Assembly: GCA_030457765.1 (NCBI GenBank)
Contig: JAKDUK010000022.1
Location: 1 to 39,357 of the forward strand
From: Marinobacter sp.
GTDB taxonomy: Bacteria > Pseudomonadota > Gammaproteobacteria > Pseudomonadales > Oleiphilaceae
DNA: 39,357 bases
Direction: 5' to 3'
The number at the start of each line of letters is the position of its first letter. Position 1 is the first letter of the stretch. Below are positions 29,227 to 38,556 of this stretch, piece by piece. A program made the position numbers and the translations under genes. The notes beneath the pieces were generated by a model. That model searched no databases, was not told the DNA's origin, and worked only from the letters and a program-made list of their open reading frames with translations.

Positions 29227-29323
29227 AAACTCTCCGGTTGTAAAACCCAGTCATACTCGGTGTGTGGTTGAAAATGTACCACATCACCACCCCGGCACAG
29301 GAAAATAACAGGGCTTTAACAAC

Positions 29324-29351
29324 AAAAAAAGGCAGCCGAAGCTGCCTTTTT
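29324..29351 (-). terminator. Intrinsic terminator of the cold-shock gene (bidirectional form)
   Basis: GGCAGC (29331-29336) and GCTGCC (29341-29346) pair around a CGAA loop, flanked by an A run on the left and a T run on the right. Read on the minus strand it is a hairpin followed by a run of seven T, 28 bp beyond the cold-shock stop codon. Confidence 0.9.
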
Positions 29352-29378
29352 GGCGGTTATTGCTCTATCCGAACGGGA

Positions 29379-29585
29379 TTAGAGAGCAGTAACGTTCTCC
29401 GCCTGAGGACCTTTTTGGCCCTGAGTAACGGTAAACTCAACTTGCTGGCCTTCTGCCAGAGTTTTGAAACCGCTGCCCTGAATAGCGCTGTAGTGAACAA
29501 AAACGTCCGGGCCGCCTTCACGAGTGATAAAGCCAAAGCCTTTAGCTTCGTTGAAGAACTTAACAGTACCGGTAGTAGTAGACAT
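29379..29585 (-). CDS. Cold-shock protein (CspA family)
   Basis: A 68-residue CSD protein that binds single-stranded RNA and DNA. RNP1 is KGFGFI (residues 15-20) and RNP2 is VFVHY (28-32). The ATG at 29585 is chosen because AGGAAG precedes it and it gives the standard length; a longer start adds seven untypical residues. Unlike E. coli cspA, no long cold-responsive leader is apparent if the promoter at 29611-29641 is used, so it may be a constitutive paralogue. Confidence 0.95.
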
Positions 29586-29610
29586 ACTTAAACTTCCTGA
29601 AATCAATCAT

Positions 29611-29641
29611 ATTATCTGCTGCCATTCACTGAATGTGTCAG
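29611..29641 (-). promoter_or_regulatory. Putative promoter of the cold-shock gene
   Basis: On the minus strand GATAAT (29616-29611) lies 18-19 bp after CTGACA/TGACAC (29641-29635). The leader would be about 20 bases. The rest of the gap up to 29821 shows nothing else I can support. Confidence 0.4.
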
Positions 29642-29821
29642 GTCAGCGTTTTATGGAAATACAGAACTCGCGGTATCAAAAACAGGACGGTCACTACTAA
29701 CTGCGGAGTACGTCTTATTCATGAAATGCTTTGCTGAATCTTTCCTACAAAACCGACTCTACTCCAGCATCACGGGTTTGCCAAGTAGATTTGCAACAAT
29801 TTATGTGCGTAGTGTTACGGA

Positions 29822-36531: not shown

Positions 36532-36936
36532 ATGGCAACACTAAAACAACAGTTCCTGACCCTGCTTCATTTTCAGCCGCTGTGGCGCCTGATTCTTATG
36601 CTCTCCGTGATAGTCATTGGCTTTCTGGCGACCACAAGCAGCGATTACCCGGTCCCCTCGGCGCCCAGCGACAAAGTGAATCACTTTATGGCCTTTTTTG
36701 AACTCACCATTGTTACCCGACTGGCCTGGCCGCATCTTCGTATTCTCTGGTATGCGCCAGCATTGCTGAGCTTCGGGCTGAGCATTGAAGCTGTTCAAGC
36801 CAATCTGCCTTACCGGGACTTCTCCTTTGCAGATTTAGCTGCCGACGGCATCGGGATACTGGCCGGGCTCCTACCTTGGCCTGGAATACGCAAATCCTAC
36901 AAAACAAACCTGAGAAATTCGCCCAAGGTCTTGTGA
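36532..36936 (+). CDS. VanZ-like family membrane protein
   Basis: A 134-residue protein with about four hydrophobic helices and the VanZ-like pattern: PSDKVNHFMAFFELT in the middle and SIEAVQANLPYRDFSFADLAADGIG later. Family members are small membrane proteins of unclear function; the founding VanZ gives low-level teicoplanin resistance in enterococci, but chromosomal homologues like this are general envelope proteins. Its stop codon overlaps a GacA/UvrY-type palindrome belonging to the small RNA gene downstream. Confidence 0.85.
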   Translation: MATLKQQFLTLLHFQPLWRLILMLSVIVIGFLATTSSDYPVPSAPSDKVNHFMAFFELTIVTRLAWPHLRILWYAPALLSFGLSIEAVQANLPYRDFSFADLAADGIGILAGLLPWPGIRKSYKTNLRNSPKVL

Positions 36937-36950
36937 GATATTTCGCACAA
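36931..36950. promoter_or_regulatory. GacA/UvrY-type upstream activating site
   Basis: TTGTGAGATATTTCGCACAA is an imperfect 20-bp palindrome. Its inner 18 bases agree at 14 positions with the E. coli UvrY site as I recall it (TGTGAGAGATCTCTTACA). It lies about 180 bp upstream of the predicted start of the small RNA, a distance like that at csrB and rsmZ. A second partial copy, TGTGAGAATTTAC, starts at 36955. Confidence 0.75.
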
Positions 36951-37103
36951 GCATGTGAGAATTTACTGTTAATTTACGTACGCGGCTGTTGCCAGCACTA
37001 TTAAAAAAACCTCCAAGCTATTGATATGTATAGCTCGTCAATACAAAAGAGACCAGACATGCCGCAGAAGTATTCAGAGGTCACAGGTTTTCATGTATTC
37101 AGT

Positions 37104-37112
37104 TGCTATAGT
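37104..37112 (+). promoter_or_regulatory. Extended -10 promoter of the small RNA
   Basis: TGC-TATAGT is an extended -10 element (TGn plus five of six -10 positions). The -35 is poor, as expected for a promoter needing an activator. Initiation six or seven bases later falls at 37118-37119, exactly where the first GGA hairpin begins. Confidence 0.6.
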
Positions 37113-37117
37113 GATGT

Positions 37118-37347
37118 TGTCAAGGATGACAGGGAAACGGACGATGCACTGGATGCACCCCGGCAAGGAATGCAGGGAGAAGCAAGGATACAAGGACACC
37201 AAGCTTAAGGGATAACTATTCGGATAGCTGGCTAGGACGCCGGCACCACGGAGTGGCTAAAGGAATCGCAACACGGCTGTTGCACTCAGCGCAAGGATGC
37301 GCCGACCTGTTCCGTTAAAGGGCAGCCCAAGGGCGGCCCTTTTTTTA
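37118..37347 (+). ncRNA. csrB: CsrB/RsmZ-type CsrA-sequestering small RNA
   Basis: About 230 nt, with 14 GGA motifs between 37124 and 37297, roughly four to five times chance. Several sit in loops of perfect short stems: TGTCA-AGGA-TGACA (37118-37131), TGCA-CTGGA-TGCA (37145-37157), GCA-AGGAA-TGC (37163-37173), GGC-TAGGAC-GCC (37230-37241), CCAC-GGA-GTGG (37246-37256), GCGC-AAGGAT-GCGC (37289-37302). A non-GGA hairpin, GCAACA-CGGC-TGTTGC, is at 37268-37283. This is the hallmark of RNAs that titrate CsrA/RsmA and so relieve translational repression. A GacA/UvrY-like site, an extended -10 and a terminator complete the gene. The exact 5' end is inferred; overlapping small reading frames are taken as spurious. 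Confidence 0.88.
37319..37346 (+). terminator. Intrinsic terminator of the small RNA
   Basis: AGGGCAGCC (37319-37327) pairs with GGCGGCCCT (37332-37340) around a CAAG loop with one A-G mismatch, followed by six or more T residues. Confidence 0.92.
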
Positions 37348-37452
37348 TCCCGAATTTACCGCCACACCCCTTAAAGCACCCGGATCACAAAGCAGGAAAA
37401 CCCCATATCCGCTATACTGCCGCCTCATTATAGCAAGCGGTTGAACCCTGAA

Positions 37453-38556
37453 ATGGCAAGCAGACCCGATACCGACAACCTTCTTTCCCTGTTCCTGAAC
37501 GACACTCCATTAATGGATGTGCGGGCACCGGTGGAATTCACCAAAGGCAGCTTCCCTGGTGCTGAAAACGCACCGTTAATGAATGACGAAGAACGACACC
37601 AGGTAGGCATCTGTTACAAAGAAAAGGGTCAGGACGAAGCCATCCGGCTCGGCCACCAGTTGGTGGCGGGCAGCATCAAGACTCAGCGCATTGAAGCCTG
37701 GAAACAGTTTGTTTCGCGCCATCCAGAGGGCTACTTGTTTTGCTTTCGCGGCGGCTTGCGATCCAAGCTGACTCAGCAGTGGATGAAAGAGGCAGGCATT
37801 GATTACCCCCTCGTTCAAGGTGGTTACAAGGCCTTGCGCCGGTTTCTTATCGATAGCCTGGAAAATCTTGTTGAGTCGGATCTTTTTTATATCGTCAGCG
37901 GGCGCACGGGAACAGGCAAAACCCGAGTACTAAAACAACTCCCAAACCCGGTAGACCTTGAAGACCTGGCAAACCACAGAGGCTCGAGCTTCGGGCGCCA
38001 GGTAACACCGCAACCATCACAGATAGATTTCGAAAACCGTTTAGCGGTTGCCATGTTAAAGGCCCATCATTTAGTCGGCGGCCCTGTGTACCTGGAGGAT
38101 GAAAGCCGTCTGGTTGGCCGCTGCGCCATACCGGATTCTCTCAAAGAGCGCATAGCACAGGCACCGCTACTTGTTCTCGAGCGGTCGCTGGAAGACCGCA
38201 TACAGATTATCCGCGAAGACTACGTGGAAAACATGTCTGCCGACTATATGAGCCGTGATGGCGAGGAAGCCGGCTGGCTGAACTTTCGAAACTATCTTCT
38301 TGAGGCACTTGAACGCATCAGCAAACGCTTGGGCGGCGATCGGTACAGCCAATTGCGCGGTTTTATGGAGCAAGCTCTGGCAAAACAGGAAAACACCGGT
38401 AGTGTTAATGGCCACGATGCCTGGATTCAACCACTCCTTCAGAACTACTGCGACCCAATGTACGATTACCAGCTCGGGAAAAAGCAAGGGGAAATACATG
38501 TTCACGGCGGCCCGAATGTCCTTATGGAGTGGGCCAAAAAGAACACCTCTGTGTAA
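37453..38556 (+). CDS. mnmH: tRNA 2-selenouridine synthase
   Basis: A 367-residue SelU/MnmH protein (E. coli 364). An N-terminal rhodanese domain carries C97 in LFCFRGGLRS, the same position as in E. coli. A P-loop domain with GRTGTGKT (150-157) follows. It replaces sulfur by selenium, through a geranylated intermediate, at the wobble uridine of Lys, Glu and Gln tRNAs, using selenophosphate from SelD. The ATG at 37453 is chosen over TTG at 37441. A TATACT -10-like box lies at 37413-37418. The upstream small RNA ends in its own terminator, so the two are separate transcripts. Confidence 0.94.
   Translation: MASRPDTDNLLSLFLNDTPLMDVRAPVEFTKGSFPGAENAPLMNDEERHQVGICYKEKGQDEAIRLGHQLVAGSIKTQRIEAWKQFVSRHPEGYLFCFRGGLRSKLTQQWMKEAGIDYPLVQGGYKALRRFLIDSLENLVESDLFYIVSGRTGTGKTRVLKQLPNPVDLEDLANHRGSSFGRQVTPQPSQIDFENRLAVAMLKAHHLVGGPVYLEDESRLVGRCAIPDSLKERIAQAPLLVLERSLEDRIQIIREDYVENMSADYMSRDGEEAGWLNFRNYLLEALERISKRLGGDRYSQLRGFMEQALAKQENTGSVNGHDAWIQPLLQNYCDPMYDYQLGKKQGEIHVHGGPNVLMEWAKKNTSV

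Follow-up and report, generated by a model that had tools for sequence, protein, structure and literature searches.

The gap between a vanZ-like gene and mnmH in Marinobacter sp. very probably encodes a small regulatory RNA of the Csr/Rsm type. As read from its sequence, this predicted RNA of ~230 nt (37118–37347, + strand, with the start predicted within a base or two) is likely to bind several CsrA dimers through its GGA loops. Messages under CsrA repression would thereby be released, and transcription of the RNA is likely activated by phosphorylated GacA from a site ~180 bp upstream. Marinobacter is a widespread marine genus of hydrocarbon-degrading and algae-associated bacteria, and the RNA would offer a defined entry point to a global regulatory switch of this genus, through a gene that is invisible both to protein-only annotation and to Rfam.

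The window, that is, the whole stretch of 39,357 nucleotides that was analysed, comes from a draft genome of 3.17 Mb (86% complete), the genus of which was taken as Marinobacter by named records. The upstream neighbour of the RNA is the vanZ-like gene (36532–36936, +), which scores 27.3 bits with Pfam VanZ (below the cut-off of 30.1) and 20.1 bits with NCBIfam NF037970 (cut-off 20). Downstream lies mnmH, the gene for tRNA 2-selenouridine synthase (37453–38556, +; NCBIfam NF008751, 529 bits, cut-off 361); Pfam matched nothing for the mnmH frame from 37441. Within the gap follow, in this order, an 18-mer, an IHF-like site on the minus strand, an extended -10 element and a stretch rich in GGA, followed by a terminator hairpin and U-tract. 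Elsewhere in the window, an Rfam cspA thermoregulator match was observed at 29323–29730 (-); it scores 79.4 bits, the gathering score being 78.

A blastn search of 117 genomes with positions 36900–37440 as query found the element in 71, 70 of them among the 73 genomes of the window's genus (its own included). The sole match outside the genus covers 30 bases of the terminator. After exclusion of L069, L070 and L071, which are partial matches with the anchor off, 67 of the 70 matched loci were retained for conservation counts. The alignment A1 has 53 rows, as 14 of the 67 were left out because of longer insertions or a deletion, so that the covariation counts given below cover 53 of 67 homologues. 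Shuffles were dinucleotide for GGA counts and single-base for the 18-mer and the IHF-like site.

The palindrome TTGTGAGATATTTCGCACAA is located at 36931–36950 and contains the predicted GacA/UvrY binding site TGTGAGATATTTCGCACA (36932–36949, +). Its centre lies ~178 bp before the predicted start, in agreement with the distance of about 180 bp expected in the initial annotation. The same annotation called the palindrome very close to the known UvrY site, a description that is borne out by its conservation across the genus and is slightly generous for the copy in the window, which departs from the E. coli consensus at three of its 12 fixed bases and agrees with it at the other nine. That consensus is given as TGTAAGNNNNNNCTTACA in the available text of PMC4682653. 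The best match to TGTRAG-N6-CTYACA is found at -183 to -190 in 66 of the 67 homologues and at -198 in the remaining one, with at most one mismatch in 59 (0.1 expected from shuffles), and the mean column conservation of the 18-mer is 0.88 over the 67 homologues. As a bare pattern, TGTRMGNNNNNNCNYACA has nine matches (5+4) at six places in the window's own genome and three (1+2) for the reversed control; in the complete genome G004, the figures are 10+10 versus 7+7. As the bare pattern is only modestly above its reversed control, the weight of the GacA-type site rests on its conserved position. The vanZ stop codon TGA (36934–36936) falls within the first half of the site. The same is observed in 31 of 67 relatives, so that the end of the coding sequence and the regulatory site overlap in bases.

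Between this site and the RNA, several further elements are conserved among the 67 homologues. Six-base windows reach 0.82 at GTGAGA (36955–36960, +), which resembles another half-site, and 0.87 at CGTACGC (36977–36983, +). The IHF-like site TATCAATAGCTTG (37014–37026, -), placed between the activator site and the promoter, is a perfect match to WATCAANNNNTTR, which we take to be the IHF consensus. The best such site has zero, one or two mismatches in 11, 36 and 20 of the 67 homologues, compared with 0.3, 8.8 and 38.6 in shuffles; thus, 47 have at most one mismatch where 9.1 are expected. In 45 of 67 homologues it occupies the minus strand between -101 and -107; its mean conservation is 0.71. 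In the -35 region, a block with consensus TTCACACG (37080–37087, +) is conserved at 0.85–0.87 in six-base windows; the window's version, TCACAgG at 37081–37087, differs from the sigma-70 -35 hexamer. The extended -10 element named in the initial annotation, TGcTATAGT at 37104–37112 (+), is conserved (mean column conservation 0.91, 67 homologues). A sigma-70 two-hexamer scan of the region found no promoter, which is consistent with a promoter of the extended -10 type. At E. coli csrB, the available text of PMC4682653 places the UvrY inverted repeat far upstream, in a crosslinked region from -222 to -142, and reports a second crosslink from -56 to +25 with a putative IHF site between the two. 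By analogy with this second crosslink, the TTCACACG block could be a promoter-near contact of the activator GacA.

Given that the GGA-rich stretch lies directly between two genes on the same strand, and that vanZ is present in 69 of the 70 loci carrying the RNA, it might be argued that the stretch is a vanZ 3' UTR or an mnmH leader that acts in cis rather than a free RNA. We regard this as very unlikely. The stretch has its own conserved extended -10 element and ends in a terminator before mnmH, and the DNA linking vanZ to the promoter is poorly conserved except for the short blocks (0.42–0.45 in its two longest poor segments versus 0.83 in the RNA, 67 homologues). Nor is the proximity to mnmH fixed: the DNA that lies before mnmH in the window is found, in G009 and G055, ~760 bp past the RNA match instead of 44. 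The mnmH gene falls inside the available DNA in 43 of the 70 loci, with flanks often shorter than 1 kb; additional DNA precedes it in two or more relatives. In G004, vanZ is followed by mnmH after ~130 bp in the absence of the RNA (L187), so the two genes can remain neighbours without it.

The predicted RNA carries 14 GGA, 11 of them as ANGGA, a motif named as the CsrA motif in the available texts of PMC9788540 and PMC5864184. All 14 sit in 37124–37297, which confirms the count of 14 in about 180 bases given in the initial annotation. Dinucleotide shuffles of 37118–37347 yield 6.8 +/- 1.8 GGA and 1.9 +/- 1.2 ANGGA, and none of 2000 equals the observed 14 or 11. Over the rest of the window, counts per 230 nt peak at 12 GGA and 5 ANGGA on the minus strand and at 10 and 4 on the plus strand. 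The 67 aligned homologues contain 12–17 GGA and 7–12 ANGGA per 230 nt. Twelve of the 14 GGA are conserved in at least 58 of these homologues and four in all 67, while the variable ones, at 37167 and 37262, keep the same column in 43. The GGA loops are therefore not generally lost in close relatives, the exceptions being G026, G062, G004 and G033, which are discussed below.

The protein partners are encoded in the same genome, so that two of the refuting conditions named in the initial annotation, loss of the GGA loops in close relatives and a genome lacking csrA or gacA, do not apply. CsrA (PF02599, 90.9 bits) has the sequence MLILTRRVGETLMV...VHREEIYQ, and GacA/UvrY scores 299 bits with NF007018 (cut-off 280). 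Across the genus, GacA exceeds the cut-off in 116 of 120 genomes, including 106 of 106 of good quality; the four misses are 58–82% complete. A BarA/GacS-like hybrid kinase scores 852 bits over positions 1–896 of 920, under the cut-off of 890. From this anatomy, we infer a chain that follows the csrB scheme published in PMC4682653, as far as its available text describes it: phosphorylated GacA would occupy the distal 18-mer, the DNA between this site and the promoter would be bent by IHF as at E. coli csrB, and RNA polymerase would initiate from the extended -10 element. The RNA produced would then capture CsrA dimers through its ANGGA loops, and this titration would relieve CsrA-repressed mRNAs.

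Repeated G-rich loops could in principle serve other partners, and CsrA binding is a prediction here; the stretch might instead be a structured GGA-rich RNA that acts through a different RNA-binding protein or by base pairing with mRNAs. This possibility, too, is very unlikely. What has been conserved is ANGGA, the named CsrA motif; the number and placement of GGA are kept in the 67 homologues, coupled to a GacA-type site; and among the UvrY targets of E. coli, csrB and csrC stand out by a wide margin as the strongest, according to the available text of PMC4682653.

The evidence for structure comes from covariation rather than from stability, since the single-sequence fold has a z of -1.14, with 26 of 200 shuffles as stable, and its overall stability is unremarkable. 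A nine-helix model was drawn from local hairpins of the window sequence and tested on the 53 homologues of A1, where 90.8% of 2380 cells are paired. Changes on both sides occur in 15 of 45 pairs, compared with 6.6 in shuffles (none of 500 reaches 15), and compensatory changes are found in six of the nine helices. When partners are slid by 1–3 columns, pairing falls to 32–44%. It should be noted that both controls lean towards the model: the sliding control because the model was taken from one of the aligned sequences, and the shuffles because the sequences are related. RNAalifold alone recovers seven of the nine helices in whole or part, with 13 of 37 pairs compensated. It omits hairpins 1 and 6 and pairs alignment bases 8–10 and 16–18 with columns 218–225, an alternative in which the bases of the first GGA are paired long-range with the region before the terminator.

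Helices 3, 5, 7 and the terminator are the best supported. Hairpin 3 (37159–37177, loop AGGAA) is paired in 92.4% of cells and hairpin 5 (37227–37244, loop uAGGAc) in 99.1%, each with three pairs changed on both sides; hairpin 7 (37268–37283) reaches 99.2% with two such pairs, its loop ACGGCU having GG rather than GGA in the window's genome. The intrinsic terminator (37317–37347, with the stem-loop at 37317–37342 followed by the U-tract) is paired in 96.7% of cells and has five pairs changed on both sides; a terminator scan caught the inner stem and covariation supports the full stem, which upholds the strong terminator of the initial annotation. Hairpin 8 (37289–37302, loop AGGA) shows 83.3% pairing and one pair changed on both sides. 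Hairpins 1, 2 and 6 are weak: the first (37119–37130, loop AGGA) has 86.7% of cells paired and no compensatory change, the second (37145–37157, loop cUGGA) 66.7%, its outermost pair not being conserved, and the sixth (37246–37256), a GGA-bearing hairpin with a weak stem, 78.6% without compensatory change. Helix 4 (37180–37206), a short stem around a wide loop with two GGA, hardly varies, being 100% paired with no pair changed on both sides. All of these features lie on the + strand. In the single-sequence ensemble, six of the 14 GGA are fully open, four are partly open and four are mostly paired on at least two bases; the description of many GGA in loops of perfect hairpins was therefore overstated.

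Finally, the suggestion that the interval encodes one or more small proteins can be dismissed. Three open frames run across it, of 75, 65 and 37 aa; over the same columns they are intact in no more than 3, 2 and 18 of 66 homologues, respectively, and the compensatory changes track RNA pairs (within the RNA part alone, the 75 and 65 aa frames are intact in 24 and 37 of 66, as expected for short stretches with few indels).

The reach of the RNA was followed with R1, a covariance model built in this analysis, and with a DNA pattern derived from the promoter together with the first few hairpins, used to search named loci. Carriers include the culturable laboratory strains M. algicola DG893 (L114) and M. 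salarius R9SW1 (L128). R1 also matches G060, which blastn had missed, at 122 bits. The pattern matches 48 named loci, namely 46 from Marinobacter, one from a 'Halomonas' MAG and one from a Prevotellaceae MAG; R1 matches 47 of them, 46 at full length and one cut by a contig end. The Prevotellaceae locus (L148) has no R1 match and was set aside as a chance hit. The MAG titled Halomonas sp. SAT58 (L146) carries a full-length Marinobacter-type RNA (253.7 bits) and is probably misnamed. Beyond the genus, R1 matches G258 (124 bits) and G421 (44 bits), which belong to other genera of the same family; in both, the RNA comes after vanZ with a GacA-type site in between, and the 700 nt past vanZ hold 20 and 23 GGA, respectively. 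In G421 (L189), which belongs to a sister genus, the RNA after vanZ looks longer, and an additional GGA cluster was observed at L217 (7 ANGGA in 200 nt), without a good site. An order-wide R1 search of 390 genomes gave matches in 36 at E up to 0.001; 18 of these genomes lie outside the family and contribute 21 weak matches. Nine of these 21, from eight genomes, were inspected: in none do ANGGA exceed 3 per 200 nt, and all lack a site with fewer than two mismatches; eight further ones span the terminator positions of R1 only. As the inspected matches look like noise, lacking a GGA cluster or a good site, the RNA is not claimed outside the family. A search of a plasmid collection gave no match to the element.

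Within the genus, reduction and loss were also found. G026 (L069) and G062 (L070) have shortened RNAs that score 43 and 49 bits, G004 lacks the RNA altogether, and in G033 (62% complete) there is no match beyond the terminator. As a separate observation, G004, G026 and G062 have the lowest GacA scores (~284 bits) of the 116 genomes with a match.

Of the six places with the site pattern in the window's own genome, one other than the window's borders an ANGGA cluster (6 in 200 nt), and the remaining four have 2–4. This place corresponds to a second predicted RNA, also rich in GGA and equipped with a GacA/UvrY-type site of its own (L076:1501–1720, RNA ~1574–1700, contig C127, + strand), the site being centred ~65 bp before the predicted start. 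Downstream lies a ComEA-like gene (L076:1842–2111; TIGR00426, 83 bits, cut-off 53). Among the 72 other genomes of the genus, 61 carry the second RNA or its upstream DNA; of 30 loci scanned, 23 are richer (9–12 ANGGA per 200 nt) and 20 have a site that fits the pattern. With E up to 1, R1 does not match this RNA in the window's genome, and the score of the RNA with RF00166 (RsmZ) is sub-threshold (16.2 bits against a gathering score of 44). In G004, seven of 10 site-pattern places were scanned, and at one of them the adjoining DNA is rich in GGA (10 ANGGA in 200 nt); the same ComEA-like gene lies downstream, its protein being 64% identical over 73 residues. Some of the 11 places in G026 were likewise scanned, revealing one GGA-rich stretch with 10 ANGGA per 200 nt. 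In both genomes, the spacing of the site equals that seen for the second RNA. From the stretch and site in G004, it follows that the lineage in which the first RNA was lost has retained a second one. The second RNA, with its nearer site, probably shares the work of the vanZ–mnmH RNA.

Collectively, these observations lend themselves to a broader reading, towards which we lean with some reserve. The vanZ–mnmH RNA may found a Csr RNA family that is invisible to Rfam and confined to Marinobacter and sister genera, acting as a 14-GGA, IHF-assisted sponge with a distal site. Together with a proximal-site partner near the ComEA-like gene, it may form a two-RNA Csr switch, of which the G026, G062 and G004 lineage may be dismantling the first RNA stepwise while the second is kept. 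If this is true, that lineage is a natural experiment on Csr RNA redundancy.

The initial annotation spoke of a CsrB/RsmZ-type RNA, which stands for anatomy and inferred function and fails for family membership. The Rfam search suggested there gave nothing: with the 4227 families of Rfam 15 at E up to 10, no Csr/Rsm family (CsrB, RsmY, which we take to be RF00195, or RsmZ) is among the four matches listed. Those four (BjrC68, STnc320, ZEB2_AS1_3 and PK-BYV) are weak, far below their gathering scores, and were rejected. RF00018 (CsrB) matched none of 19 genomes, while the E. coli control was matched. As no Rfam Csr/Rsm model matches, the RNA is of the Csr/Rsm type by its sequence anatomy and predicted function, outside the existing Rfam families. 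The assignment draws on multiple GGA and ANGGA motifs that are conserved and above chance; on GGA in loops of conserved short hairpins, in part only for hairpins 1, 2 and 6; on a stand-alone gene, at the sequence level, with promoter and intrinsic terminator; on a GacA/UvrY site upstream, as a sequence motif; and on csrA and gacA in the genome. In the literature searched, which covered few subscription papers, no description of a Marinobacter CsrA-antagonist RNA was found, and Marinobacter is absent from the main text and Table 2 of PMC5568370, a machine-learning prediction of such RNAs. Missed by Rfam 15 and not met in this literature, the RNA is thus new, while its kind is known. The alignment A1 can serve as a seed alignment for a new RNA family.

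E. coli CsrB has many GGA hairpin loops, as is predicted for the RNA described here, and the two are further alike in having a distal UvrY-type site and an IHF-like site before the promoter. They differ in that the Marinobacter RNA, at ~230 nt, is shorter than the 356-position RF00018 model, which it does not match, and in that its gene has an extended -10 element without a sigma-70 -35 hexamer. Pseudomonas RsmZ (RF00166) and RsmY are GacA-controlled RNAs (PMC2375449, available text), and IHF has been reported at P. fluorescens rsmZ (cited within the available text of PMC4682653). The likeness lies in GacA-type control, which is predicted here, and the IHF-like site; in contrast, neither of these Rfam families matches the vanZ–mnmH RNA at E up to 10, and the neighbour is vanZ instead of the fdxA found at rsmZ, an arrangement stated in the available text of PMC9788540. 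The same source describes Alcanivorax CsrR2, which has six unpaired GGA and lies beside a ferredoxin gene, features that set it apart from the vanZ–mnmH RNA in a comparison made by description only. CsrR2 and Alteromonas Aln1a-c are presented in the texts available (PMC9788540 and PMC5864184) as CsrA-type RNAs that carry GGA motifs, and in this they resemble the RNA predicted here; both come from other marine gammaproteobacteria.
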